From positions 1 through 64,000 of the forward strand of contig NZ_JAHKRR010000005.1 in the NCBI RefSeq assembly GCF_018863395.1: 64,000 nucleotides of DNA. The letters are read 5' to 3'. The translations under genes and the position numbers were made by a program. Shown one piece after another: positions 4,859-60,076 of this stretch. Positions within the stretch are counted from its first letter, which is position 1, and each line of letters begins with the position of its first letter. This DNA comes from Sinomicrobium weinanense (GTDB taxonomy: Bacteria > Bacteroidota > Bacteroidia > Flavobacteriales > Flavobacteriaceae). The notes below the pieces were generated by a model, which did not search any database, had not been told where the DNA came from, and saw nothing but the letters and a program-made list of their open reading frames with translations.

Positions 4859-4874
4859 GGCGATGTATATTTAA

Positions 4875-4945
4875 CTACAAAGTACGCGAAGGATTACACA
4901 AAATTCGCAATGTATATGCTTTGTGCTCTCCGTACCTGCTTTGTT
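4875..4945. repeat. Inverted repeat built of CACAAAG/TACGCGAAG words
   Basis: The spacer between the DUF294 gene and the DksA-like gene holds a left arm with ACAAAGTACGCGAAG and ACACAAAATTCGC and a right arm (4918-4945) reading roughly as the reverse complement (CTTTGTGCTCTCCGTACC, CTTTGT). The match is imperfect. A tight hairpin CGAGTCT-CC-AGACTCG follows at 4973-4988. Confidence 0.5.
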
Positions 4946-5034
4946 CCCCTCTGTGGTTGTATAAGCCTGTTGCGAGTCTCCAGACTCGTGACATCATTAT
5001 TTAATAATATTGTTAATCCCAAACCAAAAAAACA

Positions 5035-5367
5035 ATGACCGACCCCACCGACAAACAATGGATGGAATTCCTCCAAAAACAAATCGAACTCACCGAAAAA
5101 CAGGTAGAGCGCTACAAGGAAATGACCAAACCCATAGCTCCTGAAAACGCCATAGGCCGCGTATCGCGTATGGATGCCATAAATAACCAGAGCACCGTAA
5201 AAGCCGCATTGCGACAGGCCGAAGAAAAACTCTCCAAACTAAAGTATGTGCTGGACAAAGTTGGTGACAAGGATTTCGGTATCTGTGTAAAGTGCAAAAA
5301 GCCCATTCCCATGGGCCGTATTATGGCTATGCCGCAGAGTACACTTTGTGTGGGTTGTGCACGATAG
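5035..5367 (+). CDS. TraR/DksA-type C4 zinc finger protein
   Basis: Protein of 110 residues with an N-terminal helical coiled-coil part (about 1-75) and a C-terminal C4 zinc finger, ICVKCKKPI...STLCVGCAR, the arrangement of DksA/TraR proteins. DksA relatives insert the coiled coil into the secondary channel of RNA polymerase and tune transcription with ppGpp. The coiled-coil tip here has RVSRMDAIN, which keeps one Asp-Ala pair where classical DksA has two acidic residues. It is shorter than Escherichia coli DksA (151 residues) and typical of the Bacteroidota form. Confidence 0.88.
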   Translation: MTDPTDKQWMEFLQKQIELTEKQVERYKEMTKPIAPENAIGRVSRMDAINNQSTVKAALRQAEEKLSKLKYVLDKVGDKDFGICVKCKKPIPMGRIMAMPQSTLCVGCAR

Positions 5368-5524
5368 CCAGGTATTCCTCCATAATTTATCTTTAACAAA
5401 TCACCTCCTTTACCAAAGCCATAATATCCCTTTACTTCATTAAAAAAACCATTTAAAAAAGACGCTGTATTTAAAAACTACACAAAAAATCACCTTAACA
5501 TAATTTTTTATTAACTCCTTATAG

Positions 5525-5554
5525 TTGTCACTTCCCTTAAAAGTTATACTTTTG
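5525..5554 (+). promoter_or_regulatory. Promoter of the SulP transporter (TTG-N19-TACTTTTG)
   Basis: TTG at 5525-5527, 19-base spacer, TACTTTTG at 5547-5554, close to the family consensus. It predicts a leader of about 180 bases before the SulP start at 5742. Confidence 0.6.
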
Positions 5555-5565
5555 CCGCTTCATTT

Positions 5566-5613
5566 ATGAAACGCAGGATCACAACATACTTCAAAACCGT
5601 TACTCCGCCTTGA
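5566..5613 (+). CDS. Possible 15-codon leader ORF in the SulP leader
   Basis: ATG at 5566 opens a 15-residue reading frame, MKRRITTYFKTVTPP, ending TGA at 5611-5613. It begins about 12 bases after the -7 box of the SulP promoter and so would be the first ORF on the mRNA. It ends in Pro-Pro, a known ribosome-slowing pair. Short ORFs of this size arise by chance, so this is tentative. Confidence 0.2.
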   Translation: MKRRITTYFKTVTPP

Positions 5614-5636
5614 TGCACGGAGCCATTCCGGTGTTT

Positions 5637-5667
5637 TGCCATTCCCTGTCCTAAGGGGAATACGGCA
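5637..5667 (+). promoter_or_regulatory. Hairpin in the SulP mRNA leader
   Basis: TGCCATTCCC (5637-5646) pairs with GGGAAT (5656-5661) and GGCA (5664-5667), with a 9-base loop and a 2-base bulge. No U-tract follows, so it is not a simple terminator. It lies between the leader ORF and the SulP start. Confidence 0.35.
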
Positions 5668-5741
5668 TTGTTTTCACATATTCAGGCTTTTAGATTTTTA
5701 TCAACCAGTTACATTCCGTAATTCATTTATTATTCATTGCC

Positions 5742-7319
5742 ATGAAAAAAATATTCAATTTGTTTGACCTTTCACAAAAAGTAAATTACAAGACCGAAGT
5801 GCTTTCGGGCCTTACCGTAGCCCTGGCCCTGGTACCAGAGGCCATTGCCTTTGCCATGATCGCAGGGTTTTCGCCGCTTATTGGTCTCTATGCCGCTTTT
5901 ACCATGGGGCTCATAACCTCCATTCTCGGTGGCCGTCCGGGTATGATCTCCGGGGCTACGGGCGCCGTAGCTGTGGTTTTTGTGGGGCTTATTGTAAAAC
6001 TGAAAGAAATAACTCCCGACATCACTCCCGAAGGCATTTTACAGTTCGTCTTTGCCACGGTTATTCTGGCCGGGGCCATACAAATACTGGCCGGGGTACT
6101 GCGACTGGGTAAATTTATCCGGCTGGTGCCGCAACCCGTAATGTTTGGTTTTGTGAACGGGCTGGCCATTATTATTTTCACGGCACAATTCCCTAGTTTT
6201 TACCAAAAAGGAAGTTCGGAGCTCCTGCAAGGTTCTTCCATGTTCATCATGCTGGGGCTTGTATTACTCACCATGCTTATCATTTGGGGGCTTCCCAAAC
6301 TTACCAAAGCCATACCTTCATCACTGGTAGCCATTATCGTAGTTTCTGCCATTGTTATAGGACTGGGCGTAGAAACCACCACCGTAGCCGACACCCTCAA
6401 GGAAGGCGAGACCATCAAAGGAGGTTTTCCTCCGCTTACCATCCCTAACATTCCCTTTACCTGGGAAACTTTTACGCTTATTCTCCCCTATTCTGCCATT
6501 GTAGCCGGCGTGGGCATGATAGAAAGCCTGTTGAGTTTGAGCCTTATCGACGAGATCACAGAAACCCGTGGCCGTGGCAACAAGGAATGTGTAGCCCAGG
6601 GAACGGCCAATATCGTATCCGGTTTCCTTTCCGGTATGGGAGGCTGCGCCATGTTGGGACAAAGCCTTATTAATATCTCTTCCGGAGCCAGGGCAAGATT
6701 GTCCGGTATAGTGGCCTCGGTAGGATTACTTTGTTTTATTATGTTCGGTTCCAGCCTTATCGAAAGATTGCCTATGGCCGCTTTGGTAGGCGTTATGTTT
6801 ATGGTTGCCATCGGAACATTCGAATGGGCCAGCTTAAAGACCTTTAAAAAAATGCCTGCCTCCGATGTTATTGTCATGGTACTGGTAACTCTTATCACCG
6901 TAGTTACCCATAACCTGGCCGTTGCAGTACTTATCGGTGTAGTACTTTCTGCCCTGGCCTATTCCTGGGAAAATGCCAAGCGTATCCGGGCCAGGAAACA
7001 TGTGGATGAAGACGGTGTAAAACACTATGAGATATTCGGCCCCCTCTTTTTTGGCTCCGTACAAGGTTTTGCCGATAAATTTGACGTACTGAACGATCCT
7101 CAGGAGATCATCATTGACTTTGCCGAAAGCCGTGTAGCCGATATGTCTGCCATTGAAGCCCTCAATGCCGTGACCCACCGCTATGCCAAGCAAGGTAAAA
7201 AAGTACACCTCCGCCACCTGAGCAAAGATTGCCGCAGGTTGCTTCAAAACGCCGAAGCTATCATCGATGTGAACATCATGGAAGATCCGAGTTATAAAGT
7301 TATGGTCAATAAGATCTGA
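5742..7319 (+). CDS. SulP family inorganic anion transporter
   Basis: Inner-membrane transporter of 525 residues with 10 or more hydrophobic segments (about 20-410) and a C-terminal STAS domain (about 430-525). The SulP signature region near the N terminus, ALALVPEAIAFAMIAGFSPLIGLYAAF, and the ISGATGAVAVVF segment are clear. SulP proteins move sulfate, bicarbonate or other anions; the substrate cannot be told from sequence. No carbonic anhydrase gene is adjacent. The upstream leader of about 180 bases is unusually long for the window and contains a hairpin. Confidence 0.93.
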   Translation: MKKIFNLFDLSQKVNYKTEVLSGLTVALALVPEAIAFAMIAGFSPLIGLYAAFTMGLITSILGGRPGMISGATGAVAVVFVGLIVKLKEITPDITPEGILQFVFATVILAGAIQILAGVLRLGKFIRLVPQPVMFGFVNGLAIIIFTAQFPSFYQKGSSELLQGSSMFIMLGLVLLTMLIIWGLPKLTKAIPSSLVAIIVVSAIVIGLGVETTTVADTLKEGETIKGGFPPLTIPNIPFTWETFTLILPYSAIVAGVGMIESLLSLSLIDEITETRGRGNKECVAQGTANIVSGFLSGMGGCAMLGQSLINISSGARARLSGIVASVGLLCFIMFGSSLIERLPMAALVGVMFMVAIGTFEWASLKTFKKMPASDVIVMVLVTLITVVTHNLAVAVLIGVVLSALAYSWENAKRIRARKHVDEDGVKHYEIFGPLFFGSVQGFADKFDVLNDPQEIIIDFAESRVADMSAIEALNAVTHRYAKQGKKVHLRHLSKDCRRLLQNAEAIIDVNIMEDPSYKVMVNKI

Positions 7320-7353
7320 CTCTTTGAAACATACATATCGAAAACACAAAAGT

Positions 7354-7386
7354 TAAGGCTGTCTGAAAAAGATAGCCTTAGCTTTT
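7354..7386. terminator. Hairpin terminator between SulP and the methyltransferase
   Basis: TAAGGCTGTCT (7354-7364) pairs with AGATAGCCTTA (7370-7380) around a GAAAA loop, followed by GCTTTTT on the plus strand. It sits between two convergent genes and can serve both. Confidence 0.75.
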
Positions 7387-7392
7387 TATCTT

Positions 7393-8031
7393 CTACTTCT
7401 CAAAAATGATCAGCCTTCCCGAAACAGTCAGCCCGGAAAAGCCCAATGCTTCCCTGACCCACTCCAGAGTCCTTTCCCGGTAAATAAATACGTGGGTGGC
7501 ATCGTCCTTATAATTCCAGCCGTTAAAGTCAATACTATTATCGTATAAACCGGTCATACAATAAAGCTTCCCTTCCGGCAGCAAAAGGGATCTCAGTAAC
7601 CTGAACTCGTTATAAGGCTTGTGAAAATGCTCCATGACCTCACAACAAACAATATAGTGATAGTGCTTTTGCAGCAAACTTTTGTCGTTGGCAAAGAAGG
7701 GGTCGTACTGTACAATATTATAGGCATTGTCCCCCAGTACTTTTGAAATAACCGGCCCTGTCCCCGCACCGAAATCCAGCCCGCTGTGGTATGGCTCAAA
7801 ATCGCGCAGGACCGACGATGTAATCGGGGAAACAAATTGCTGATAGCGCTGGTCAAAAATGTCATTATTGTGTTCTTCGTAACGGGATTTTTCCGCATCT
7901 TTGTCCACATACGTACCTTTCGGGCGGAAAATACCGTAACAACCTCCACAGGAATAAAACACATGATTCCTATCGTAGAACAAACGCACATCTTCGCTAC
8001 TGCACAAGGGGCAGCTTACCCGATCACTCAT
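7393..8031 (-). CDS. Class I SAM-dependent methyltransferase with N-terminal zinc ribbon
   Basis: Protein of 212 residues. Residues 6-42 carry two Cys pairs, SCPLCSS and YSCGGCYG, forming a small zinc ribbon. The rest is a Rossmann methyltransferase with motif I DFGAGTGP (about residues 90-97), and VCCEVMEHFHKP corresponds to the post-II/motif region of methyltransferase 11/12 types. A longer frame begins with GTG at 8058, but that codon lies inside the -7 box of a good promoter, so I prefer ATG at 8031 (MSDRVSCP). Substrate unknown. Confidence 0.85.
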   Translation of the reverse strand: MSDRVSCPLCSSEDVRLFYDRNHVFYSCGGCYGIFRPKGTYVDKDAEKSRYEEHNNDIFDQRYQQFVSPITSSVLRDFEPYHSGLDFGAGTGPVISKVLGDNAYNIVQYDPFFANDKSLLQKHYHYIVCCEVMEHFHKPYNEFRLLRSLLLPEGKLYCMTGLYDNSIDFNGWNYKDDATHVFIYRERTLEWVREALGFSGLTVSGRLIIFEK

Positions 8032-8057
8032 AGGATAATGGTTTTCTGATAGTTTCA

Positions 8058-8088
8058 CAAAGGTATGGGAATTTATCAGGGAATAACA
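8058..8088 (-). promoter_or_regulatory. Methyltransferase promoter (TTG-N20-TACCTTTG)
   Basis: Minus-strand TTG at 8086-8088, 20-base spacer, TACCTTTG at 8058-8065. It places the start of transcription about 20 bases before ATG 8031 and argues against the longer GTG-initiated frame. Confidence 0.65.
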
Positions 8089-8215
8089 AAGCCTTCAGCT
8101 TCATGGTAAGAAAACACATACAGGCAAATACCGGACATCGTCACATCCTGTTAAAATTAAAACCATTTTATCATTTTTCAATCTTCCGCGTTTTACAAGC
8201 TCAAGGCAAATTTAG

Positions 8216-8223
8216 TATCTTCG
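8216..8223 (+). promoter_or_regulatory. Possible -7 box for the M14 gene
   Basis: TATCTTCG, a one-base variant of TAnnTTTG, 209 bases before the M14 start. No convincing TTG upstream. The gap 8059-8431 holds no gene. Confidence 0.3.
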
Positions 8224-8357
8224 TGCAGTTTGTACCATGCCCGCACGGGTTTACAGACTCCCAATATTGAAATCTAAACCAGAAACCGTCTGTTCATGAA
8301 ATGCCTATTAACGGTTCGTGCAAACCATCCGGTAATGTCTTAGGGCATTCCATACCT

Positions 8358-8412
8358 ATGCTGAGCTTGTCGAAGCATGACCTATGAAAATTTATAGTGA
8401 GTTTATCGAACT
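8358..8412. repeat. Copies of the CTGAGCTTGTCGAAGC repeat
   Basis: ATGCTGAGCTTGTCGAAGCAT at 8358-8378 is a nearly palindromic short repeat of a type found dispersed in many bacterial genomes (the words TGAGC and TCGAAGCA). A decayed copy, GTGAGTTTATCGAACTAAC, follows at about 8397-8415. Related sequences occur at 10241-10262 and 13901-13923. Confidence 0.5.
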
Positions 8413-8431
8413 AACAAATAAAAAATAGCAG

Positions 8432-10174
8432 ATGAAACGATATTTTCTATCCTTTCTCCTCCTGTTGGTCGTGGCATGTAACACGATCAATACGGAAGAA
8501 GAACAGGAATTCACCACCTTTTTTGAAAACTCCGGGGGAAAAGAGACCCCTGCTTATACCGGGGTCATGGAATACTACATGAAACTGGCCAGGACATTCC
8601 CGGACATCAACTTACAGACCATGGGAAAGACCGACAGCGGCCATCCGCTTCACATTGTCACCTACAATCCCAAAGGCAATTTTAATTTTGAAAAGATCAG
8701 GAAAGACAAACGCATTCTCCTCATAAACAATGGCATCCACCCTGGCGAAAGCGATGGCATCGATGCTACCATGATGTTATTTCGGGACTATGCCACCGGG
8801 AAACTCACCCCTCCGGAAAATACAGTTATCGTAGCCATCCCTGTTTACAACATCGGGGGAGCCCTCAACAGGAACAGCCACACCAGGGCCAACCAGAACG
8901 GCCCGGAGGAATACGGTTTCCGGGGCAATGCCAGGAACTACGACCTTAACCGCGACTTCATCAAAGCCGACTCTAAAAACGCCCGGGCTTTTGCAGAGAT
9001 CTTCCATCTCGTAAAACCCGATGTCTTTGTAGACACTCATGTGAGTAACGGTGCCGACTATCAATATACCCTCACCCACCTCTTTACACAACACAACAAG
9101 CTGGGCGGCGAACTGGGCAAATACCTGCACCAGGAAATGATGCCGCAACTCGAAAAAGCCCTGGCCAGCAAGGAATGGTATATTACCCCATACGTCAATG
9201 TGTTTAATGAAGTACCAGAAAAAGGATTTTCCCAGTTTATGGATCACCCCAGGTATTCCACGGGCTACACCACATTGTGGAACACTCTGGGCATGATGGT
9301 GGAAACCCATATGCTCAAGCCCTACAAGCAAAGAGTAGAAGGCACTTATGCCCTACTGAAAAACATGGTAGACATCACTGAAAAGGACTACCGCAGGATC
9401 GGGGAGCTCCGGGAACAGGCTTTTAAAAACCATGCCACGGCAAAAACCTATCCCGTACAATGGACTGTTGATTCCACTAAACTATCCACCCTCCATTTCA
9501 GGGGATATGAAGCCGATACCCTGATCAGTGCAGTTACCGGTTTTCCCAGGTTAAAATACGACCGGAACAGGCCGTTTACCAAACCGGTGTCGTACAACGA
9601 TTATTTTAAGCCTTCCAAAGAGGTTACCATACCCGAAGCCTATATCATCCCGAAACAATGGTGGCATGTGATAGCACGGTTACAATCCAACAATGTAACG
9701 TTAAACATCATTCCCCGCGATACCCTGATGGAAGTGGAATGCTACCGCATAGAGGATTACAAAACACAGCGCAATGCCTATGAAGGCCACTACCCCCATT
9801 ACAACACCAGGGTAAGTGCCGAAGTCCGGAAAGTACAATTCCATAAAGGCGACCTGATCGTAAAAACCGACCAGCCTGCCCTCCGTTACCTGCTCGAAAC
9901 CCTCGAGCCCGAAGCTACCGACTCTTTCTTTAACTGGAACTTTTTTGATGCCATCCTCCAGCAAAAGGAGCATTTTTCACCTTACGTATTTGAAGACATT
10001 GCCAGAGAGATACTGAACACGGACCCTGCCCTGAAAGAGAAATTCGAAGCCAGAAAAAAAGAGGATACCCTCTTCGCCGGGAATTGGTACAAGCAACTGG
10101 ACTGGGTTTACAAGCATTCTCCCTATTACGAAAAAGCCCATCTGCAATACCCAGTATATCGCGTTGGGAGTTGA
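8432..10174 (+). CDS. M14 zinc carboxypeptidase lipoprotein
   Basis: Lipoprotein of 580 residues: signal peptide with lipobox VVAC (Cys16), so anchored to a membrane and exposed to periplasm or surface. The M14 domain occupies about residues 40-330. Zinc ligands are His and Glu of GIHPGES (about 108-112) and the His of VDTHVSNG; RNARNYDLNRDF holds the substrate-binding Arg/Asn residues; the catalytic Glu is in MMVETHM. About 250 residues follow with no motif I recognise, probably beta-sandwich. It would remove C-terminal residues from peptides or modified peptidoglycan stems; the substrate is not evident. Confidence 0.9.
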   Translation: MKRYFLSFLLLLVVACNTINTEEEQEFTTFFENSGGKETPAYTGVMEYYMKLARTFPDINLQTMGKTDSGHPLHIVTYNPKGNFNFEKIRKDKRILLINNGIHPGESDGIDATMMLFRDYATGKLTPPENTVIVAIPVYNIGGALNRNSHTRANQNGPEEYGFRGNARNYDLNRDFIKADSKNARAFAEIFHLVKPDVFVDTHVSNGADYQYTLTHLFTQHNKLGGELGKYLHQEMMPQLEKALASKEWYITPYVNVFNEVPEKGFSQFMDHPRYSTGYTTLWNTLGMMVETHMLKPYKQRVEGTYALLKNMVDITEKDYRRIGELREQAFKNHATAKTYPVQWTVDSTKLSTLHFRGYEADTLISAVTGFPRLKYDRNRPFTKPVSYNDYFKPSKEVTIPEAYIIPKQWWHVIARLQSNNVTLNIIPRDTLMEVECYRIEDYKTQRNAYEGHYPHYNTRVSAEVRKVQFHKGDLIVKTDQPALRYLLETLEPEATDSFFNWNFFDAILQQKEHFSPYVFEDIAREILNTDPALKEKFEARKKEDTLFAGNWYKQLDWVYKHSPYYEKAHLQYPVYRVGS

Positions 10175-10184
10175 TTAGTTGTTA

Positions 10185-10236
10185 GTTTTGGAGTCCGGGA
10201 GTTTCATAGCAAATCCAAAAACTCCGGATTTCCAAC
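10185..10236. repeat. Inverted word repeat in a convergent spacer (GGAGT/CCGG words)
   Basis: Arms GTTTTGGAGTCCGGGAGTTT (10185-10204) and its imperfect complement within 10211-10236. It lies between the M14 gene and the convergent ABC gene. It is followed by a decayed CTGCTGAGCATAGTCAAAGCA repeat (10241-10262) and by TAACTTCGTACTTCTAACTT words (10270-10290) just before the ABC stop. Confidence 0.5.
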
Positions 10237-10291
10237 ACTTCTGCTGAGCATAGTCAAAGCATCACACCTCTAACTTCGTACTTCTAACTTT

Positions 10292-12130
10292 TCAATGATA
10301 TCCGACGGCCTGTAAACTGAACAATTCGGCATACAGGCCATTGTTTTCCATAAGCGTTTCGTGCGAACCTTTTTCCAGCACCTTGCCATCTTTCAGCACT
10401 ACGATGGTATTGGCCAGCCGTACTGTACTGAAACGGTGCGAAATAATAATTGCAGTCTTCCCATCCGTTAAACCGATAAATCGTTGAAAAGCCTCATATT
10501 CAGCACGGGCATCCAGGGCCGAAGTAGGTTCGTCCAGAATCGCGATTTTGGCATCTTTCATATAGGCCCTGGCCAGGGCTATCTTTTGCCACTGCCCTCC
10601 GGAAAGGTCCAGGCCGTTGGTAAACCGGCGTCCCAGTTTTTGATCGTATTTTCGAGGCAGGGTAGCGATAACTTCATCGGCAAGGCTTTGTGCCGCTGCT
10701 TCCGAGATCTTCGTTTGGTTATTTACATTTTTAATATTCCCCACGGCAATATTCTCCCCGGCAGAAAAATTGTATTTCACAAAATCCTGGAAGATCACTC
10801 CGAAAAGGTTTTGGTATTCTTGCTTGCCAAATTCCCGAATATCCTTTCCATCCAGCAATATTACTCCTTTTGCAGGTTCGTAAAACCGTAGGGCCAGTTT
10901 TATAAGTGTCGTTTTCCCTGCCCCGTTCTCTCCTACAAAGGCAAGTTTTTTCCCGGCAGGCACTTTAAAGTTCACTCCTTTTAAGACATAATCCTGTTGA
11001 CCGGGATATTTAAACCAGACATCCACAAATTCCAGTCCGTCACGAATATCTTCCGGGACAGGAATAACGGATTTGGAATCTCCCGAAATCGTTTCCAGGT
11101 CCAGAAAATCAAAATAATCCTTTAAATACAGTGAACTCTCCGTGATCTGGCTGAACCGGAAAAAAATGGCCTGAAGCTGGTTTCGAAGCCGGTTAAAGGA
11201 ACCGGAAAGGAAAGTAAGGTCTCCGACGGTAAGCACACCGGCTACCACACGAATAATGATCAAAACAAAAGCTCCGTAATAGGAAAGCACCCCCAAAACA
11301 TTAAAGACTCCTCCCCAGAGGTTTTTCCGAATGGCCAGTTTCCGGGTTACCTTATAGTATTCGTCAGATAGTTTTTTAAAACGATCAGCAATATATCCCG
11401 TAAGCCCGAAGAGTTTCACTTCTTTGGCGGTAACGTCACTCGCCCCTACATACCGCAAGTCGTCCAGCTCTCTGCGCTCAGCGGTCCATCCGCGGGCCAG
11501 GGAATAACTCTTTTGACTGAACTTTATTTCATTGAGGAATGCCGGGATAACGGCCAGGATAAGCAACGCAATCAGCCAGGGTTCAAACACGACCAGGGCG
11601 GTAATGAGGGAAATAACGGTGATACTATCCTGAAACTGTGCCATAATACCGGACATCAGGGAAACCCTCCCTACGGTCTGCCTGCGGGCGCGTTCCAGTT
11701 TATCGTAAAAATCGGTATCCTCGAGCTGGCTCAGCTCTATTTCAGCCGTTTTGTTAATGATCTCTACGGAAGATCTATTGGAGTAGAGATCCCCTATCAG
11801 GGTATCTGTAAGGTTAATGACCCGGCTTATGAGATCGGAAAGCACGGCAAGCCCCAACTCTACTGCTACAAGGCCCCACAAACGGGTAAAGTCCTTATCT
11901 GCTGCATCGATCTGTAACACCACTTCGTCCAGTATCAATTTCCCTACCCATAACAGAAGTACCGGCGTGGCGGAATTGACGATACGAGCAAAGAGATTGG
12001 CATAGAACAGTCGCGGGGAGACATCCCGTATCTTACTGAAAAACCGGGGAATGTACTGAAGGGAACCGAAACGCTCCTTCCAGCTTATTTTTGATGCTTC
12101 CGGACGGGTAGCAGATTTTCTTTGAGGCAT
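10292..12130 (-). CDS. ABC transporter, fused permease and ATPase
   Basis: Half-transporter of 612 residues. Residues 1-330 form the type IV exporter membrane domain with about six hydrophobic segments; residues 365-600 are the ATPase with Walker A GENGAGKTTLIK, Q-loop IFQDF, signature LSGGQWQKIALARAY, Walker B IAILDEPTSALD and the switch His in IIISHRFS. It should work as a homodimer in the inner membrane and export a lipid, peptide or drug; no neighbour reveals the cargo. The membrane domain resembles the HlyB/MsbA-like group without a peptidase domain. Confidence 0.92.
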   Translation of the reverse strand: MPQRKSATRPEASKISWKERFGSLQYIPRFFSKIRDVSPRLFYANLFARIVNSATPVLLLWVGKLILDEVVLQIDAADKDFTRLWGLVAVELGLAVLSDLISRVINLTDTLIGDLYSNRSSVEIINKTAEIELSQLEDTDFYDKLERARRQTVGRVSLMSGIMAQFQDSITVISLITALVVFEPWLIALLILAVIPAFLNEIKFSQKSYSLARGWTAERRELDDLRYVGASDVTAKEVKLFGLTGYIADRFKKLSDEYYKVTRKLAIRKNLWGGVFNVLGVLSYYGAFVLIIIRVVAGVLTVGDLTFLSGSFNRLRNQLQAIFFRFSQITESSLYLKDYFDFLDLETISGDSKSVIPVPEDIRDGLEFVDVWFKYPGQQDYVLKGVNFKVPAGKKLAFVGENGAGKTTLIKLALRFYEPAKGVILLDGKDIREFGKQEYQNLFGVIFQDFVKYNFSAGENIAVGNIKNVNNQTKISEAAAQSLADEVIATLPRKYDQKLGRRFTNGLDLSGGQWQKIALARAYMKDAKIAILDEPTSALDARAEYEAFQRFIGLTDGKTAIIISHRFSTVRLANTIVVLKDGKVLEKGSHETLMENNGLYAELFSLQAVGYH

Positions 12131-13224: not shown

Positions 13225-13229
13225 TCACC

Positions 13230-13883: not shown

Positions 13884-13892
13884 ATCCAAAAT

Positions 13893-13940
13893 TCCAACTG
13901 TCATTCTGAGCGAAGCCGAAGGATCGGAATAACAGTTGGA
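13893..13940. repeat. Hairpin-forming CTGAGCGAAGCCGAAGG repeat
   Basis: TCCAACTGT (13893-13901) and ACAGTTGGA (13932-13940) are perfect 9-bp arms with a further ATTC/GAAT pair inside. The loop carries TCTGAGCGAAGCCGAAGGAT, a short repeat of a type dispersed in many bacterial genomes. It begins 10 bases after the pyrE stop. Confidence 0.6.
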
Positions 13941-14011
13941 GCTTGAAGCTGCCGGCAAAGACAAAGTTGAGAAAGCAAGTACCAAACACATAACACTAAC
14001 ATACAAGCCTA

Positions 14012-14407: not shown

Positions 14408-14410
14408 ACG

Positions 14411-14495
14411 TACGAAATGCGAGGTTAGAAGTAACAGGTTAAAAACTACTTTCTGATTTTGCACTTCGTATTTCGTACTTCTAATTTCGAACCTC
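14411..14495. repeat. Inverted word repeat in a convergent spacer (TACGAAAT words)
   Basis: Left arm TACGAAATGCGAGGTTAGAA (14411-14430) and right arm 14462-14495 (GCACTTCGTATTTCGTACTT and on) are imperfectly complementary. The structure fills the whole spacer between the SRPBCC stop and the birA stop. Confidence 0.6.
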
Positions 14496-31289: not shown

Positions 31290-31311
31290 GCTTGCCGGTA
31301 TTCGGTAGTCA

Positions 31312-31503
31312 GTGGTCGGTATTCAGTATGCGGATGACTTATGTTGAATTTATTGTCATTTGTTGTGTTGCATAGTTATTGTCCTGTAATTCTTTATTCC
31401 TGCCGATAAGTTATCGGATGTCTCTATAAATCCTCTCCCAATATTACTCCCGAATAGATTTTATGTCAAATACCGTGTATACCGAATACTGAATACCGAC
31501 CAC
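31312..31503. repeat. Long-range inverted word repeat (GGTATTCAGTAT words)
   Basis: Left arm 31312-31333 and right arm 31482-31503 are 22 bases long with a single mismatch when paired (core GGTCGGTATTCAGTAT / ATACTGAATACCGACC). About 148 bases lie between them. Further copies of the same word extend each arm. The spacer 31290-31635 holds no gene. Confidence 0.7.
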
Positions 31504-31608
31504 CAAACACTCCCCCTCCTTCTTCAACCTGATCCCAATTTTCTATCGAATGACAGCTTTGTACTGATATTCACCGCTCAATAGTTCGTTATTCATTGTT
31601 TTGTTTTG

Positions 31609-31635: not shown

Positions 31636-31842
31636 ATGAAACTTATATTACTCACCATAGGATTATTAGCCTTAGCCTTTGCGGGAATAGCCATAAAAAT
31701 ATGGGCAAAGAAAGATGGCAAATTTGCAGGTACATGTGCCAGTCAGAGTCCCTTCTTGAACAAATCCGGCGAAGCGTGCAGTTTCTGTGGAAAAATGCCC
31801 GACGAACAGGAATGCCGTGACCCCAAAACACAACAAAACTAA
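31636..31842 (+). CDS. Small membrane or secreted protein with Cys motif
   Basis: Protein of 68 residues with one N-terminal hydrophobic segment (2-22) and a Cys-containing tail: TCASQSPF, EACSFCGKMPDEQEC, with four Cys residues, two of them as CSFC. Family known in Flavobacteriaceae only as a small membrane or secreted protein. The Cys pair could bind metal or be redox active. Followed after 18 bases by a glycosyltransferase gene. Confidence 0.75.
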   Translation: MKLILLTIGLLALAFAGIAIKIWAKKDGKFAGTCASQSPFLNKSGEACSFCGKMPDEQECRDPKTQQN

Positions 31843-34803: not shown

Positions 34804-34812
34804 CCTACTTTG

Positions 34813-34838
34813 TACTTCGTACTTCGTACTTCATACTT
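34813..34838. repeat. TACTTCG tandem word array, left of lipA
   Basis: Four copies of a 7-base word: TACTTCG, TACTTCG, TACTTCA, TACTTC. The reverse complement words occur at 35749-35778 on the other side of lipA. Confidence 0.7.
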
Positions 34839-34844
34839 CTTTTG

Positions 34845-34852
34845 TATCTTTG
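34845..34852 (+). promoter_or_regulatory. -7 box of lipA
   Basis: TATCTTTG matches TAnnTTTG exactly, 19 bases before ATG 34871 and immediately after the TACTTCG array, so the array occupies the spacer and -33 region. Confidence 0.55.
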
Positions 34853-35746: not shown

Positions 35747-35748
35747 AG

Positions 35749-35778
35749 TACGAAGTCAGAAGTACGAAGTCGGAAGTA
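35749..35778. repeat. TACGAAGT word array, right of lipA
   Basis: TACGAAGTCAGAAGTACGAA followed by GTCGGAAGTA, beginning two bases after the lipA stop. It is the reverse complement of the array before lipA, so the gene is bracketed by complementary arms about 900 bases apart. Confidence 0.7.
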
Positions 35779-39243: not shown

Positions 39244-39300
39244 TCGGTATTCAGTATTCGGTATTTTGTATCAATCACTGACCACCGATCACCGAATACC
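39244..39300. repeat. Inverted word repeat filling the kinase/lpxK spacer
   Basis: CGGTATTCAGTATTCGGTAT (39245-39264) and, on the right, CACTGACCACCGATCACCGA and GAATACC form an imperfect stem. It starts at the base after the kinase stop and ends at the lpxK stop: the entire convergent spacer is the repeat. Confidence 0.65.
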
Positions 39301-40307: not shown

Positions 40308-40317
40308 GATGTTGTTT

Positions 40318-40396
40318 CCAGTGTTCCAGTGTTCCGGTGTTCGAGGATACAGGTGTTCGAGTTGTTTAAACTACATACTCGAATACTCGTACACTC
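40318..40396. repeat. Inverted word repeat (GTGTTC / GAATACTCG words)
   Basis: Left words CCAGTGTTCCAGTGTTCCGG and TGTTCGAGG; right words TACTCGAATACTCGTACACT. They are partly complementary (GTGTTCGAGGAT / ATACTCGTACAC). It lies between the divergent lpxK and Nif3-like genes, upstream of both. Confidence 0.5.
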
Positions 40397-40521
40397 GCCC
40401 TACAAATAACGGTTATTTTTTTTACTTCGGAAGAATTCCGGATTTTTCACTGTATATTTAGGACCTGAAAACCCGCCTGCCGGGTTCGCCTTTGTTTTTT
40501 TAATCGAAAAGAAGGAACAAC

Positions 40522-46831: not shown

Positions 46832-47151
46832 AAATTAGCGTTTTTTTAACATCATCAAAACTACTAATAATATATCAAAAGCTCTTACAGGAAAGTAAGG
46901 TTTATCCTTAAGATAACATTTGCTTTACACTATTTTCCGGAAATCATTTTTTGTTATATCCCAGGAGGAAATAATCATATAAGACCACCTTATTTCTGCG
47001 GAAATCTGCGATGATCTGCGCTATCTGCGGGAGAAATTTTAGGTCGCAGATCACGCAGATTTATATATTTTTTCGGAGATGCCGTGACTTTTTACGGGCT
47101 GGTTTATTATCACAAAGACACTAAGGTTACGGTTCCGTTCACAAAAATCGC
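46832..47151. other. 320-base spacer; inverted AATCTGCG word repeat
   Basis: No gene. At 46995-47030 the words TCTGCGGAAATCTGCGATGA and TCTGCGCTATCTGCGG form a left arm; 47045-47062, CGCAGATCACGCAGATTT, is the complementary right arm. CACAAAGACACTAAGG (47113-47128) is another typical dispersed word. The rest is AT-rich and unremarkable. Confidence 0.55.
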
Positions 47152-50006: not shown

Positions 50007-50052
50007 CGGCCGGAACACATCTTAAGCTGAGCACTAATAGGATTCGAAGTTC

Positions 50053-50119
50053 AAGGTTTAAGGTTGCAGGTTAGAGGTTGAATTAGTAGGAGTTTAACCT
50101 GTAACTTGCAACCTGCAAC
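50053..50119. repeat. Inverted word repeat (GGTTGCA words)
   Basis: AAGGTTTAAGGTTGCAGGTT (50053-50072) on the left and TTAACCTGTAACTTGCAACC (50094-50113) with CTGCAAC on the right. The GGTTGCAGGTT core pairs with AACCTGCAAC. Lies in a spacer before the AraC gene. Confidence 0.6.
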
Positions 50120-50121
50120 AC

Positions 50122-50190
50122 TAAATACCCGATCCAATACCGATCACTGCTTACTGAATACCGACCACTGAATACTGTTCACCGAATACT
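50122..50190. repeat. Word array ACTGAATACCG
   Basis: Degenerate tandem words: TACCGATCACTG, CTTACTGAATACCGACCACT, GAATACTG, TTCACCGAATACT. Same word family as at 31312-31503 and 39244-39300. Confidence 0.55.
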
Positions 50191-54439: not shown

Positions 54440-55159
54440 ATGATGCACCTCTATAAACTCACAATAAACAGGATGATCTTTAATGTCCTGCCCACACTGA
54501 TCATTTTAATATTGTATATAAAGCTCAGATCGGATCAACCGTTAATGCCACTGCAATCCATCGATTTTCTCCTTATCCCTCTCCTGTTTCTCCTGTTCAT
54601 TACATATAAAGAAAGCCAAAAAATATCGAGCTTTATAAAAAAACGAAGAAAAATGCTCCAAAAACGAGAGCTCCTGTCTGTGCCATCAGATCTATCATTC
54701 TTTAACAGGTTTAATGTGCTGGACAAAAAAATCACGGTTCAGGAGAAAAGTATTAGTGTGACAGGCGAAAAACTGTCTGTCATTGTTTATATCAGTAAAA
54801 CTGACAAGTATATAGAGATCAAAAACAATTTCGGGCACCGTAGGATCGCCTTCAGCGATATTGATTTTATTTTTCTAGAATATTATAACAGCTATTTTTA
54901 TACATTTCAAGGACTCTTTACAAGAGGATATTCTGACAAACAGCTTTGGAAAAATTCGGTCGCCCTGGTCCTCAGATCGGGGAAGATCGTTCCGTTCTTC
55001 GAGGCTCAACTCGACCAGACCTGCTATCGACAATATATAGAGAATTCCGATAATACATCCGTTACAAATGAAAACTATCTGCATTACGGCGAAAAGGCCA
55101 TCCGGGTTTTAAGCCATGCCATCCATAAAAAATATCTTATTATCGATCATACGGAATGA
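54440..55159 (+). CDS. Hypothetical membrane protein with cytosolic domain
   Basis: Protein of 239 residues with two N-terminal membrane segments (about 13-29 and 40-56), a basic linker (FIKKRRKMLQKRE) and a soluble domain (about 75-235) with alternating strands, reminiscent of PH-like domains found in Bacteroidota membrane proteins. Base composition is more AT-rich than in neighbouring genes. No family recognised. Confidence 0.6.
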   Translation: MMHLYKLTINRMIFNVLPTLIILILYIKLRSDQPLMPLQSIDFLLIPLLFLLFITYKESQKISSFIKKRRKMLQKRELLSVPSDLSFFNRFNVLDKKITVQEKSISVTGEKLSVIVYISKTDKYIEIKNNFGHRRIAFSDIDFIFLEYYNSYFYTFQGLFTRGYSDKQLWKNSVALVLRSGKIVPFFEAQLDQTCYRQYIENSDNTSVTNENYLHYGEKAIRVLSHAIHKKYLIIDHTE

Positions 55160-55284
55160 TCCCTCCGGACATCCGAATACCTGTGCTCTTACTTTCAAAA
55201 TGCCAAAACCCCGGAAAAAACTCCTCCACATCGTATAATTCCCTATTTTAGCTTATCGGTAATACATACTAAAAATAACATAAA

Positions 55285-56589
55285 ATGACCTCCGCCCCCC
55301 CCATTTATCAGATAATTACAACGATTTTCTTCCTGTTAACGACAGCAGTGGGATACAGCCAGCCAACCGTTGAAAAAAATGAAAAGATCTACGCTGAGAT
55401 CGATTCGCTCATAGATGCCAAGGATTATTTCCGCGCCAGGGAAAAATACATGGAAAACCTCGATCGCCTTTCCGAACTTCATCGTCTTAAAAGCGGTGTT
55501 TTCCTGGACAATGTATTTAACCATCCTGACTCCTCTATCCACAAAATGAAGTTATTGCTCACCAGGCACGCCTCCGAAATATCAGATAGCCTTAAGTTCA
55601 GGATGCTTTCCATCAATCATGTCAATTATTCCAAATTGTTCGAATATAAAAAAGCAAAGGAAACCCTGGAACGCCTGCTGGCCGAATACCCGCACTGGAT
55701 GACCGGGGAAGAGGAGGAAGACCACAGGAACACCCTGGCCATATGGTCGGCCCTGGAAGATCAGCCCAAACAACAGATCGAGATCGACAACACCGTGAAC
55801 CTGGAAATCACCCGGGACAAGGCACAACTGCAAAACCTCATGGTCACCCGCGATACCGTGAAACAACATTTCGTTTTCGACACCGGGGCCAACCTTTCGA
55901 CCATCACTGAAACCACCGCAAAACGATTTGGTCTAGTATTGATGGATGGTATTGTAAATGTCGATGCCGCAACAGGTAACAAGATAAAATCAAGGATCGC
56001 CATAGCTCCCGAACTTTCCCTGGATGGCCTGACGGTCCGCAATGCCGTCTTCCTGGTTTTTCCGGACGAGGCCCTGGCTTTTCCACAGATAAACTACCAG
56101 ATACACGGTATTATAGGGTTTCCGGTCATCGAAGGCATGAAAGAGATACAGATCACCAGGAACAACCGGTTTATTGTTCCCAAAGAACGGACTTCATCTT
56201 CGCAACGCAACCTTGCCATCGATTTCCTCACTCCCCTGATCTACCTGAAAGACAAGACCGGATGGGGTACATATGCACTGGATACAGGGGCTAAGAACAG
56301 TATGCTCTACGATATATATTTCGCGAAAAATAAAGAAGAACTCAACACCTCTTATAACGAGACTGAAGTCTCTTTTGGCGGAGTCGGCGGAATTGTCACA
56401 AAAAAAGGAATGTATATGACTTTCGAACCGGAGATCAATAACAGGACGATCGGCCTGGATTCCATCGTAGTGCTGAAAGAAGCTGTGAAACCGGACAATC
56501 ACTATCTCGGTAACATAGGTCAGGACCTTATCCGAAAGTTTGAGAAAGTGACTTTTAATTTCCAGGACATGTTTATCAGGTTTGACTGA
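55285..56589 (+). CDS. Aspartyl protease-like protein, secreted
   Basis: Protein of 434 residues: signal peptide (1-26, TTAVGYSQ), a helical TPR-like N-terminal part (about 30-160), then two retropepsin-like halves with FVFDTGANLSTITETT (about residues 192-207) and TYALDTGAKNSMLYD (about residues 328-342). Both have DTG. It should act in the periplasm or at the surface; substrate unknown. Related in active-site arrangement to the PDZ-bearing protein at 25777-27132. Confidence 0.85.
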   Translation: MTSAPPIYQIITTIFFLLTTAVGYSQPTVEKNEKIYAEIDSLIDAKDYFRAREKYMENLDRLSELHRLKSGVFLDNVFNHPDSSIHKMKLLLTRHASEISDSLKFRMLSINHVNYSKLFEYKKAKETLERLLAEYPHWMTGEEEEDHRNTLAIWSALEDQPKQQIEIDNTVNLEITRDKAQLQNLMVTRDTVKQHFVFDTGANLSTITETTAKRFGLVLMDGIVNVDAATGNKIKSRIAIAPELSLDGLTVRNAVFLVFPDEALAFPQINYQIHGIIGFPVIEGMKEIQITRNNRFIVPKERTSSSQRNLAIDFLTPLIYLKDKTGWGTYALDTGAKNSMLYDIYFAKNKEELNTSYNETEVSFGGVGGIVTKKGMYMTFEPEINNRTIGLDSIVVLKEAVKPDNHYLGNIGQDLIRKFEKVTFNFQDMFIRFD

Positions 56590-56635
56590 CTGTGCTCCTG
56601 AGAATACATTATCCGGGATTGAATAAAGGGTTAAA

Positions 56636-56707
56636 AGGAGTTTGGGAGTTTTAAAGTATCTTTTTTTTGTTACCCTCATCAACTCCGAACTCCAAAACTA
56701 AAAAACT
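56636..56707. repeat. Inverted word repeat (GGAGTTT / AACTCC words)
   Basis: GGAGTTTGGGAGTTTT on the left and CAACTCCGAACTCCAAAACT on the right are imperfect complements with a loop of about 25 bases. Similar words occur at 10185-10236. Confidence 0.55.
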
Positions 56708-56841
56708 ATTCCGTATTGGGTACCGGGAATTTAAAATCGTGAAATCTTCGGCCCGGGACTTCCAAGTGGTGTTAATTTTATAAATTGGGCGAAAAATCGG
56801 TTTTTACGAATAGCTATCCGTTCAGACCAACCTTGAAGTCA

Positions 56842-58371
56842 ATGCTAATTTACCGGAAACCTGATATCGTCCGCTTTTCCTTTATGCTCGCCAGCCTTAT
56901 GCTGACGGGGCTTCTCTTTTCCTGTACCGGCCTTAGGAAGGAAAAGGATAAGATAAAGATCGGCTTCTCCCAGGGCATGACCACCGACGACTGGAGAAAA
57001 CAGATGAACAAATCCATGCGGCTGGAGGCCTCTTTACATGACGATGTGGACCTGGCCATACTGGATGCCGATGACGATGTGGAAAAACAGCTTACGGACA
57101 TTGAGACCCTGATCCGGAACAGATCGGATATTATCATTGTATCCCCTATACAATCGCGCCCGCTTACCGCCGTAGTAGAAAAATCCGTAAAAGCGGGGAT
57201 CCCGGTGATTGTCATCGACCGCAAAATTGAAAATGAACGCTATACGGCCTATATCGGGGCAGACAACATCGAGGTGGGAAGAAATGCCGGACGGTATATC
57301 GCATCCGTTATCCCCCATCACGAGGGAGGGATCAGGATCGTGGAAATAAAAGGGCTCAAAGGCTCCTCCCCGGCTTATGAAAGAAGCCTGGGATTTCGCC
57401 AGATCGTCAACCGTTTTGAAAAGCTGAAAGTTGTCGCTTCTATCGACGGAAACTGGGAAAGCGAGTCGGTAAAGGCCCCTTTGAGAAATATCCTGAAACA
57501 GGACAAAGATATCGATTATGTATTCTGTCACAACGACCGCATGGCCCTCAGTGCCTGGGAAGTGGCCCGGGAAAAAGGTGTGGAAAACAAGATAAAATTC
57601 ATCGGTGTAGACGGGCTCAACACCCGGAACGGCGGTATACAACTGGTGCAGGACAAGGTCTTACAGGCCACCATCTTCTATCCCACAGGAGGGAACGAGG
57701 CCATAAAACTTGCCCTTAAGATCCTGAATAAAGATCCCGTATCGAAAAACAATATACTGGGCACCACTGTGATCGACTCCGTAAACGCAGACATCATGAA
57801 AAACCAGCTGGACAAGATAGACCTCCAGCAGGCCAGTATAGAAAACCAACTGCATAAACTCTCCGAACAGGAAAAAAAATATGCCACCCAAACCAATCTC
57901 ATTAAGATACTGACCTTTTCCCTGGTGCTTATCCTGTCACTTGCACTGTACAGTATTTATTCTACTTACGTGATAAGCAAGAAGAAAAAACTGCTGGAAC
58001 TTCAAAGCGAAAAGATCACCCTTCAGCAAAACGAAATAGAAAAGATCACCGGGCAGGAATTCCGTACCAGACTCGACACCATTATAGAGCAGCACCTGGA
58101 TAACCCGCAGTTTACGGTGGAAGAACTCGCCCAAAGGCTAAATCTGTCGCGTGTGCAGCTCTACCGTAAAATAAAAGGGATGTTCGGTATAAGCGTCAAT
58201 GAGTACATCAGTGGCATAAGGCTTGAAAAATCCAGGGAAATGCTCCGGAAGACTTCCCTGAACATTGCCGAAGTTGCTTATGCTTGCGGCTTTTCTTCCC
58301 CCAACTATTTTTCTACTTCTTTTAAGAACAAATACGGTATCACCCCAAAAGAATACAAGAACAATCCGTAG
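56842..58371 (+). CDS. Membrane-spanning sugar sensor/AraC regulator of the fructan locus
   Basis: Protein of 509 residues: signal or anchor with lipobox LFSC (Cys28); a periplasmic-binding-protein domain of the RbsB/LacI type (about 35-320, IKIGFSQGMTTDDW, SPIQSRPLTAVVEKSVKAGI, FCHNDRMALSAWEVA); a membrane segment (about 353-375); a short coiled coil; and an AraC HTH (about 410-509, LAQRLNLSRVQLYRKIKGMF and AYACGFSSPNYFSTSFKNKYG). It therefore senses sugar outside and binds DNA inside, with no kinase. I start at ATG 56842; a TTG at 56785 would add 19 residues. The likely inducer is a fructose-containing sugar, from the genes downstream. Confidence 0.85.
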   Translation: MLIYRKPDIVRFSFMLASLMLTGLLFSCTGLRKEKDKIKIGFSQGMTTDDWRKQMNKSMRLEASLHDDVDLAILDADDDVEKQLTDIETLIRNRSDIIIVSPIQSRPLTAVVEKSVKAGIPVIVIDRKIENERYTAYIGADNIEVGRNAGRYIASVIPHHEGGIRIVEIKGLKGSSPAYERSLGFRQIVNRFEKLKVVASIDGNWESESVKAPLRNILKQDKDIDYVFCHNDRMALSAWEVAREKGVENKIKFIGVDGLNTRNGGIQLVQDKVLQATIFYPTGGNEAIKLALKILNKDPVSKNNILGTTVIDSVNADIMKNQLDKIDLQQASIENQLHKLSEQEKKYATQTNLIKILTFSLVLILSLALYSIYSTYVISKKKKLLELQSEKITLQQNEIEKITGQEFRTRLDTIIEQHLDNPQFTVEELAQRLNLSRVQLYRKIKGMFGISVNEYISGIRLEKSREMLRKTSLNIAEVAYACGFSSPNYFSTSFKNKYGITPKEYKNNP

Positions 58372-58502
58372 TTCCCGATACGGTTTTCCGTGATCCTCGT
58401 GGCCGACCTGTCCTTTTCAGTTTTTCCAACCAGATTTCCACATGAAATACCCTTACTCCGATAAGGTCAAACTAAAATTCGAATAATTCATCATTAAGAA
58501 CG

Positions 58503-58554
58503 TGTTAAAACCATGTAACCTCAGTATAATTTGTGTTACCTGAGTGTAACTATA
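58503..58554 (+). promoter_or_regulatory. Direct-repeat operator candidate of the fructan locus
   Basis: TGTTA (58503) then TGTAAC 11 bases later (58514), and the same pair again at 58534 and 58545. Each pair has spacing 11, and the pairs are offset by 31 bp (about three helical turns). This matches how AraC-type proteins bind direct repeats. It lies between the regulator gene and the transporter gene. Function inferred. Confidence 0.45.
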
Positions 58555-58713
58555 TCGTTGTAGTACATGATTTATAAAAAATAAAGCCCTTGATTTGCAA
58601 CGATTTAAAAAAATAAAGGCATAAAAAATCAAAAACGAAATAATTTGCAACATCATTAAACATAAACCTTGTTTTTTAAGAATAGTTTAGCATTCATCAC
58701 AATAAATTACAAG

Positions 58714-60048
58714 ATGAATAAAATTATTCTTTGGTCTGTTACGGCTGCATTGGCCGGTTTCCTGTTCGGGTTTGACACCGTGGTGATTTCGGGAGCTGAT
58801 AAACAATTACAATTATTATGGAAGTCCTCCGATGCCTTTCACGGTTCGGTGGTCATGGCCATGGCTTTGTGGGGTACGGTGGTCGGCGCCCTGTTCGGCG
58901 GAATACCTACCAACAGGATAGGCAGAAAAAACACCCTGCTGTTGATAGGGGTGCTCTATCTGGCTTCTTCTCTCGGTTCTGCCCTGGCCAATGATCCTTA
59001 TACCTTTGCTTTTTTCCGGTTTATCGGGGGATTGGGCGTGGGGGCATCGACCATTGCTGCACCTGCCTACGTATCGGAAATTGCCCCTGCAAAAAAACGG
59101 GGCCGGCTGGTATCTCTTTATCAATTTAATATTGTGCTGGGCATCTTGATCGCCTTCATCTCTAACTACCTGCTCAGAGACACAGGCCATAACTCCTGGC
59201 GCTGGATGATGGGAGTGGAAACCTTCCCTGCCCTGATATACCTCCTTTTTGCATTCAACCTGCCCAAAAGCCCGAGATGGCTTATTTCCAAAAAACGGAT
59301 AGACAATGCCAAAACAGTACTAAAATTTATTAACCCCGACAAAGATGCCGAACATTTAATCGAAGAGATCCGGAAAGGGTCGGAGACAGAAGATAGCGGG
59401 GAAAGCATACTCATGAAAAAATACAGGTTTCCGCTTATCCTTGCCTTTCTCATTGCCATGTTCAACCAGCTATCTGGAATAAATGCCTTTCTGTACTATG
59501 CCCCCAGAATATTCGAGGAAGCCGGACTGGCACAGAATACAGCCCTACTGAGTAGCGTAGGTATAGGGTTGGTGAACCTGTTGTTCACGCTTTTAGGGGT
59601 GATGCTTATAGATAAGCTGGGCAGAAAGCCCCTGTTGCTGTATGGTTCATTCGGCTATATCCTGTCGCTTTCCATGGTCACGGCCGCATTTTATTTTGAC
59701 TGGGGCGGATATTCGGTGCCCTTGTCACTGTTTTTATTCATCGCATCGCATGCCGTAGGCCAGGGAGCTGTGATCTGGGTTTATATTTCCGAAATATTCC
59801 CCAATCACCTGAGGTCATCCGGGCAGGCTTTCGGATCGTCTGTACACTGGGTGCTTGCCGCTGTTATCCCCTCGCTTATTCCCATGCTTTTCGGCGCCAT
59901 CGGTGCCTGGCCGGTGTTTATGTTCTTTACGGTAATGATGGCGATGCAACTTCTCTTTGTATGGTTCGTCATGCCGGAGACCAAGGGAATTTCCCTGGAG
60001 AACATACAATTACGGATCAGAAGTCAGAAGTCGGAAGTTAAAAGTTAG
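58714..60048 (+). CDS. MFS sugar transporter
   Basis: Inner-membrane sugar porter of 444 residues with 12 hydrophobic segments. Sugar porter marks: GFLFGFDTVVISGA (helix 1), NRIGRKN (loop 2-3), LPKSPRWLIS and MPETKGISLE at the end. Likely substrate is a fructose or sucrose-type sugar, inferred from GH32 and SusC neighbours. Start ATG 58714 (MNKIILWSV); the TTG at 58669 is unlikely. The last residues, RIRSQKSEVKS, are encoded by a dispersed word repeat (60018-60051) that supplies the stop codon. Confidence 0.92.
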   Translation: MNKIILWSVTAALAGFLFGFDTVVISGADKQLQLLWKSSDAFHGSVVMAMALWGTVVGALFGGIPTNRIGRKNTLLLIGVLYLASSLGSALANDPYTFAFFRFIGGLGVGASTIAAPAYVSEIAPAKKRGRLVSLYQFNIVLGILIAFISNYLLRDTGHNSWRWMMGVETFPALIYLLFAFNLPKSPRWLISKKRIDNAKTVLKFINPDKDAEHLIEEIRKGSETEDSGESILMKKYRFPLILAFLIAMFNQLSGINAFLYYAPRIFEEAGLAQNTALLSSVGIGLVNLLFTLLGVMLIDKLGRKPLLLYGSFGYILSLSMVTAAFYFDWGGYSVPLSLFLFIASHAVGQGAVIWVYISEIFPNHLRSSGQAFGSSVHWVLAAVIPSLIPMLFGAIGAWPVFMFFTVMMAMQLLFVWFVMPETKGISLENIQLRIRSQKSEVKS

Positions 60049-60076
60049 AGGTATTGAAGGGGGGGGCACAGGGGGG
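60018..60076. repeat. AGAAGTCAGAAG word repeat in the transporter 3' end; G tracts
   Basis: CAGAAGTCAGAAGTCGGAAG and TTAAAAGTTAGAGG (60018-60051) cover the last codons and stop of the MFS gene and match the word type of 35749-35778. A run of eight G (60059-60066) and one of six G (60071-60076) separated by CACA follow. Confidence 0.65.

Follow-up and report, generated by a model that had tools for sequence, protein, structure and literature searches.

S23 genes and heptamer repeats have been described separately, and the closest known systems fall into these two groups. S23 (PF05635) is the four-helix bundle protein of 23S rRNA intervening sequences (IVS). In the IVS of Coxiella burnetii and similar cases, the S23 gene lies in an insert of a few hundred nucleotides whose complementary ends form a stem; the insert sits in rRNA helices and is excised by RNase III, and the available part of this report calls the function and origin of S23 IVS unclear (PMC4990558). 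Intergenic heptamers are known from Xanthomonas (GGGAATC) and Nostoc (GGGGA(T/C)T), with 70 and 75 convergent pairs in two Xanthomonas genomes (PMC4692102), and TAACTGA repeats are found sporadically in Beggiatoaceae, cyanobacteria, and some Bacteroidetes (PMC4679880). Satellites can also be formed from heptamers (PMC6749651). The accessible portions of PMC4679880 and PMC4692102 leave the origin of the repeats open, and the main text of the latter mentions neither S23 nor "four helix". As far as these sources are available, they treat heptamer repeats and S23 IVS apart (PMC4692102, PMC4679880, PMC6749651, PMC4990558), and no paper linking word or heptamer repeats with S23 was recognised in full-text literature searches, as judged by titles and abstract openings and with subscription papers mostly outside. 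The present analysis concerns the first 64,000 nucleotides of a contig of Sinomicrobium weinanense (C26:1-64000, here called the window) from a 5.36-Mb genome labelled G000. Spacers in the window hold word hairpins, inverted repeats whose arms are arrays of short tandem words. Arms of this kind are much commoner at S23 genes than at control genes, in the genus, the order, the phylum, and cyanobacterial plasmids. It appears, with a probability of about 0.55, that these are IVS-like S23 elements with slippage-built, mirrored ends, and that the window's hairpins belong to this class as members without the gene or as relics.

Word arms frame many S23 genes of the genus and order and few control genes. 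The core set has 51 S23 loci, 23 from the genus and 28 from the order. The order loci are the best-scoring ones, one per genome, and the genus loci are partly non-independent, since one locus is represented by two fragments and two insertions appear more than once as orthologs. Strands were found by profile, arrays were called at a score of at least 11, and a closing inverted repeat at a score of at least 14. Such an inverted repeat closes around the S23 gene in 25 of the 51 loci and in none of the 29 thioredoxin loci used as controls. A word array lies beside the gene on either side in 34 loci and on both sides in 21, while the corresponding counts for thioredoxin are 1/29 and 0/29. The arms have a single polarity: among the 28 loci scoring at least 13, the G-rich arm is on the left in 27 and on the right in none. 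Both neighbors are co-directional with the S23 gene in 44/51 loci, and the arms begin a median of 5.5 nt past the upstream stop codon (22 loci), with a period of 7 and a lag identity of 0.61. Arms of different loci match each other at a score of at least 14 in 1.6% of 2550 pairs, which makes the word nearly private to each S23 copy. The S23 proteins match PF05635, TIGR02436, and the solved chain 2gsc (XCC0516). For 40 small genes of the window's contig, the inverted-repeat score of the flanks is at most 13.

The association extends beyond the order. S23 matches with E <=1e-15 were found in 105 of the 148 genomes sampled from the phylum. Further phylum loci, one per genome (n=26), have an inverted repeat scoring at least 14 in 11 cases, all of the same polarity (11:0), with an array beside the gene in 16 and co-directional neighbors in 19. 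Annotated S23 loci on cyanobacterial plasmids, some of which are closely related to each other, have an array on at least one side in 13/13 cases at a cut-off of 10 and an inverted repeat scoring at least 14 in 6/13. Their words include GGGAACA in the arms of Nostoc edaphicum; the pair of arrays in Nostoc sp. HK-01 is direct, not inverted. Ten of the 13 plasmid genes are flanked by genes that run in one direction, some of them in cas or tra runs. On three of the plasmids (L287, L292, L298), S23 and its word arrays stand between CRISPR genes, twice between cas6 and cas4 and once between cas10 and Cmr3.

One S23 gene framed by word arms lies on the same contig as the window. The spacer at C26:154462 encloses between its two arms a PF05635 gene (C26:154570-154884, minus strand) that had not been called and is broken by a stop; the gene is split in the sister species G001, and the 380 nt between the arms are well conserved. 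The same word family is found in both species. By eye, TTTAAGG is the commonest word of both arms in G000, and in G001 TTCAAGG occurs three times on the left and once on the right, a weak hint that the arms change together.

A single operon in the genus shows both filled and S23-free sites. The spacer between one gene pair, which we take to be a metallo-hydrolase gene and menC, measures 562, 554, and 669 nt in three species, where it holds an S23 gene and GAGACTTGG-type arms. In three other species it measures 110, 15, and 1 nt and has no S23 gene. No word hairpin was found in the S23-free species; two of these spacers (1 and 15 nt) are too short for one, and the 110-nt spacer was judged by eye. 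The pattern is compatible with gain or loss alike. Among the filled orthologs the word type is constant and the length of the run differs greatly, as slippage would give.

Word arrays are far in excess of chance throughout the sampled part of the genome. The sample consists of 36 stretches including the window (764 kb, 14% of the genome), from which 505 spacers were scored for self-match after five stretches with known hits were excluded; a wider sample has 641 spacers, of which 633 (30-900 nt) were used for the inverted-repeat scan. Spacers were defined by a simple codon-model gene caller, which recovered 45/50 E. coli coding sequences with the same stop and overlooked two S23 genes and a small open reading frame (ORF) at 31636. 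At a self-match score of at least 11, arrays occur at lag 7 in 55/505 spacers compared with 1.6 in shuffles and at lag 8 in 22 compared with 1.0, which rules out a chance origin. Lag 10 is found in 6 spacers (0.6 in shuffles), lag 6 in none (1.6), lag 9 in 5 (1.4), and lag 11 in 6 (1.6). When the window is excluded, the counts are 49/463 for lag 7 and 20/463 for lag 8. The sister species G001 has 6/154 and 8/154, respectively, and an E. coli stretch, a small control, has no array in 27 spacers. In one 580-nt spacer of G001 (L116:1436), the same AACTCC-word array is repeated about every 130 nt, with four copies in all. Across 80 named Bacteroidota loci, taken from the FtsH matches listed, so that very near records may be absent, period-7 arrays occur in 31/778 spacers and period-8 arrays in 13/778, compared with 3 and 5, respectively, in a single shuffle. 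A few genomes account for several of these arrays, and the words are mostly other ones.

The arrays pair in inverted order, and their polarity follows one rule. Arrays have an inverted partner scoring at least 16 in their own spacer in 24/88 cases and a direct one in 3/88 (arrays longer than 45 nt excluded). Word inverted repeats number 79 in the sampled spacers of 30-900 nt and 13 in one shuffled set. Of the 79, 68 have a G-rich left arm and 8 a C-rich one (binomial p 5.6e-13), and at a score of at least 16 the ratio is 27:0, whereas other inverted repeats are divided 115:101. This G-strand-first rule is identical when read from either strand, and it holds at 23:0 and 22:3 in the two classes of co-directional spacers, 14:1 in convergent spacers, and 9:4 in divergent ones. 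Word order agrees between paired arms at 14.91, compared with 13.13 for permuted words (sd 0.44, n=34), and between spacers at 18.26, compared with 17.08 (sd 0.24, 120 arrays). The arms therefore look like mutual copies, and arrays have also spread between sites.

Several degenerate word families recur in the genome, and larger units are repeated as well. In composites, AGTTTTGG arms enclose CACCCCTCTGCCTTCGGCATCTCCCC and AGATTGATGG arms enclose CCCGCTACGCGGG, and the core CCCTGAGCGAAGCCGAAGGG adjoins several word families. Since families and composites recur, individual sites do not build their words freely. The CCCTGAGCGAAGCCGAAGGG core is REP-like and lies at 13884-14011 of the window and in 17 other sampled spacers, often directly after GGT and inside arrays of differing word families or next to them; the words on its two sides look duplicated at L143:14558. 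Another dispersed repeat, possibly a miniature inverted-repeat transposable element, has up to about 230 matched nucleotides that are 72-85% alike in most pairs. Its copies are at L014:7953, L018:12758, L018:17911, L131:7115, L134:1018, L143:8839, and L017:8236, some of them between word arms.

Within the window, the inverted repeat reaches p <=0.01 at five sites (10185, 14411, 31312, 39244, and 50053), as judged by 300 dinucleotide shuffles of each spacer. An initial annotation had listed ten spacers with complementary arms built from words of 6-11 bases and had made their excess over shuffled spacers the test of the idea. The excess stands on the 14% sample of the genome, but the range of word lengths was too wide, since only lags 7, 8, and weakly 10 are in excess. 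Tandem and inverted repeat were confirmed together at four of the listed sites (14411-14495, 31312-31503, 39244-39300, and 50053-50119). The first is a hairpin of TTCGTAC-type heptamers at 14410-14491 between convergent genes (tandem p 0.003, inverted repeat p 0.007). At the second, a G-rich left arm of CGGTATT-type heptamers (31296-31333; tandem score 13, p 0.007) begins immediately past a stop codon and pairs with 31482-31503 at a score of 20 (0/300 shuffles); the C-rich right arm of AATACCG-type words (31479-31510) is separated from it by a loop of 148 nt. The insert at 31296-31510 is absent from the orthologous spacers of the sister species G001-G004. The third, at 39244-39299, is a CGGTATT-type hairpin that fills a convergent-gene spacer (tandem 15, 0/300; inverted repeat p 0.010). 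At the fourth, an AGGTTGC-type heptamer hairpin (50037-50138; inverted repeat 18, 0/300; tandem also 0/300) is followed by a second array of AATACCG-type words (50136-50185, from tandem repeat finder rows), so that the listed site is part of a lag-7 array at 50043-50177.

The remaining sites are partial or weaker. The spacer at 10185-10236 separates convergent genes, and AGTTTTGG-type words form an inverted repeat in it with the G-rich arm on the left (10184-10239; score 11, p 0.003), but its significant tandem score (p 0.023) belongs to a short period-7 array (CTAACTTCGTACTTCTAACTT) at 10266-10290; related words occur in the same spacer of G001 and G003. The pair given as 34813 with 35778 consists of strong arrays, TACTTCG heptamers at 34806-34839 (tandem 23, 0/300) and AAGTACG/AAGTCGG heptamers directly past a stop codon at 35747-35777 (tandem 12, 0/300). 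They are complementary (score 18.5, 0/300), but a gene separates them and their polarity is reversed, with the C-rich arm on the left. The first adjoins a TTTTGTATCTTTG stretch (the two together at 34806-34849) that is conserved in three sister species and resembles a Bacteroidota promoter. Period-8 words at 40316-40397 (CCAGTGTT left, ATACTCGA right) are clearly tandem (17, 0/300), and their inverted repeat is marginal (p 0.053; site 40318-40396). Two further sites are marginal only: TCTGCG words of about 10 bases with their complement at 46995-47060 (listed to 47062; tandem p 0.047, inverted repeat p 0.053), and AGTTTTGG-type words in two arms at 56639-56708 (listed as 56636-56707; p 0.050 and 0.297), which are not significant alone and belong to a word family that recurs elsewhere in the genome. 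The site at 4875-4945 is at chance level (tandem p 0.83, inverted repeat p 0.57). An array of TCAGAAG heptamers at a gene end (60017-60052; tandem 17, 0/300) has no partner (inverted repeat p 0.48). No Rfam family reaches its gathering threshold in the window. Four sister species have, in their orthologous spacer, reading frames similar to a 68-codon ORF at 31636-31842 on the plus strand.

Arrays were also compared between sister species. Among 90 orthologous spacers, an array is found in 19 in G000, in 4 in G001, and in 1 in both, and shared positions do not exceed the number expected by chance (p 0.62; 0.05-0.07 with laxer thresholds). Spacers with an array in G000 alone are longer in G000 by a median of 24 nt (n=18), compared with -2 nt for those without arrays (n=68; p 0.005). 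At 34806-34839, three sister species have a shorter variant of TACTTC words beside TTTTGTATCTTTG, and the full run is found in this genome only. The G001 ortholog of the spacer at 14411 has a hairpin of another word, AGTTTTGG, in both arms.

The element proposed here would be an insert bounded by two arms of tandem words of 7-8 (or 10) bases, with the G-rich strand first. A complete insert would contain a small S23 gene between the arms, in sense, a few bases past a stop codon and ahead of the next gene. Words may multiply by replication slippage, and the arms may stay matched when template switching at a foldback writes one arm from the other. The element may be mobile. The S23 protein might bind the hairpin or its transcript, although this is a guess.

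Local building alone is the reading closest to the initial annotation, which saw only the architecture kept from site to site and proposed a replication or repair process acting on the spot. Slippage would multiply a chance 7-8-mer, foldback template switching would mirror it, and S23 would be a bystander. The seed-like shorter words of the sister species at 34806, the change of run length in orthologous arms, and the mirrored word order all agree with it, and template switching that makes or homogenises hairpins has been described (PMC8794818, PMC8604942). However, it does not predict the association with S23 (25/51 loci compared with 0/29), the sense orientation of the genes, the single polarity, or the recurring word families and whole composites, and the word order common to different spacers goes beyond permutation. 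Polarity and the S23 gene, which the initial annotation lacked, point to an inserted element and not to a generic repair process; local building by itself is rather unlikely. The idea that form, rather than sequence, is conserved is best borne out around the S23 genes, with their nearly private words, and less so within the genome, where a few word families recur. Independent addition of words to two broken DNA ends was rejected, as the arms mirror each other and the flanking genes are in order at most sites compared. The word hairpin could also be a target, with S23 cassettes preferring spacers that already hold one. Solo hairpins far outnumber S23 genes and other repeat cores are also found inside word arms, but the three S23-free species at the operon described above show no word hairpin and the word is tied to the S23 copy, making this order of events doubtful.

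Selected RNA structures in 3' untranslated regions, either terminators or mRNA-stabilising hairpins, are a very improbable explanation. In co-directional spacers, word hairpins are closer to the upstream stop in 41/49 cases (86/131 for other hairpins), with solo hairpins a median of 15 nt past it, and the predicted RNA fold of 31290-31520 clearly beats shuffles (z -3.96). On the other hand, a U-tract follows only 2/27 word hairpins with a loop of up to 15 nt, compared with 53/105 other hairpins, which rules out intrinsic terminators. Mismatches in the arms are G·T in 63 cases and A·C in 66, and in S23 arms 18 and 34; with no G·U excess in either set, pairing maintained by RNA selection was rejected. 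Word hairpins also occur in divergent spacers (15/79). REP-like elements moved by Y1 (RAYT-type) transposases are hardly credible as a source. The genome has three Y1 genes, and an inverted repeat scoring at least 14 is found at 5/15 Y1 loci, but these palindromes are not word arrays: an array lies beside 1/15 and on both sides of 0/15, and a Y1 origin was rejected on this ground. At L164, L171, L177, and other Y1 loci, the genes are framed by near-perfect palindromes without tandem words.

Several results weigh against the S23 element as the source of the window's hairpins. No S23 remnant was found in these hairpins or in any other of the 641 sampled spacers, and arrays occur in 75 of these spacers compared with 3 S23 genes in the same stretches. 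The inverted repeat scores below 14 in 26/51 S23 loci, and the predicted fold of one S23 insert is closed by the word arms but beats shuffles only weakly (z -1.73). Matches of S23 arms to solo arrays of this genome (score at least 14, period-10 words left out) occur in 3/6 of its own loci and 4/16 loci from other genera; sister-species loci have them in 6/12. Array density is not significantly tied to the number of S23 genes (per genome p 0.12): arrays are present in 13/207 spacers of ten S23-rich genomes and 7/170 of twelve S23-free ones, with 2.7 and 3.7 in shuffles, and five of the latter seven come from two very AT-rich genomes. The word inverted repeats of the 80 named Bacteroidota loci are not polar (17:16), polarity is weaker in G001 (13:7), and no mobility was seen. 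The gene-less hairpins may nevertheless be members or relics of the S23 element class.

A wider reading is possible and can be put forward only tentatively. In Bacteroidota and cyanobacteria, and perhaps also in Xanthomonas, the intergenic heptamer repeats might be the self-renewing ends of one S23 class, in which each element rewrites the word of both arms together, much as a telomere is maintained, and leaves behind hairpins without the gene, which come to fill the host's spacers. Such a class would keep no end sequence, only the rule of a tandem 7-8-mer, G strand first, and mirrored. The link between repeats and S23 gives the heptamers a candidate protein partner for binding of the arms, and it gives S23 a repeat class that can be traced through filled and empty sites. 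If it is true, the ends of an element would be recognised by form and not by sequence.

Among the known systems, the rRNA IVS resemble these inserts in several features. Complementary ends are found at five window sites and 25/51 S23 loci, and an S23 gene lies inside the insert at the S23 loci but not in the window hairpins. In contrast to rRNA IVS, the S23 inserts lie in gene spacers and have tandem-word arms whose word is almost always peculiar to the copy; the window hairpins are likewise all in spacers of protein genes, none in a 23S rRNA helix. A further likeness, at the level of protein profiles, is to the Avd proteins of diversity-generating retroelements: the NCBIfam model of Avd weakly matches three of four S23 proteins, with E values of 1e-5 to 1e-4 that do not pass its cut-off. 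REP and REPIN sequences with their RAYT genes (PMC3733652, PMC3116915) are also small dispersed intergenic palindromes, but in the text available they have a conserved palindrome and a Y1 transposase, while word arms have no fixed sequence and do not accompany Y1 genes. One possible route for copying arm into arm is template switching between inverted repeats (PMC8794818, PMC8604942, PMC7202029); as described in the accessible parts of these reports it is a mutation process and not an element, and it leaves the word period, the polarity, and S23 unexplained. The TAACTGA repeats are intergenic heptamers too, but the available text of PMC4679880 describes a single word in direct repeats, mostly just upstream of start codons, with a single inverted repeat among 170 sets. 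The heptamers of Xanthomonas and Nostoc differ in having one word per genome and, in the accessible portion of PMC4692102, are generally not tied to mobile elements. The convergent pairs of Xanthomonas reported there may be read as the same G-strand-first order that is found in the word hairpins of this genome.

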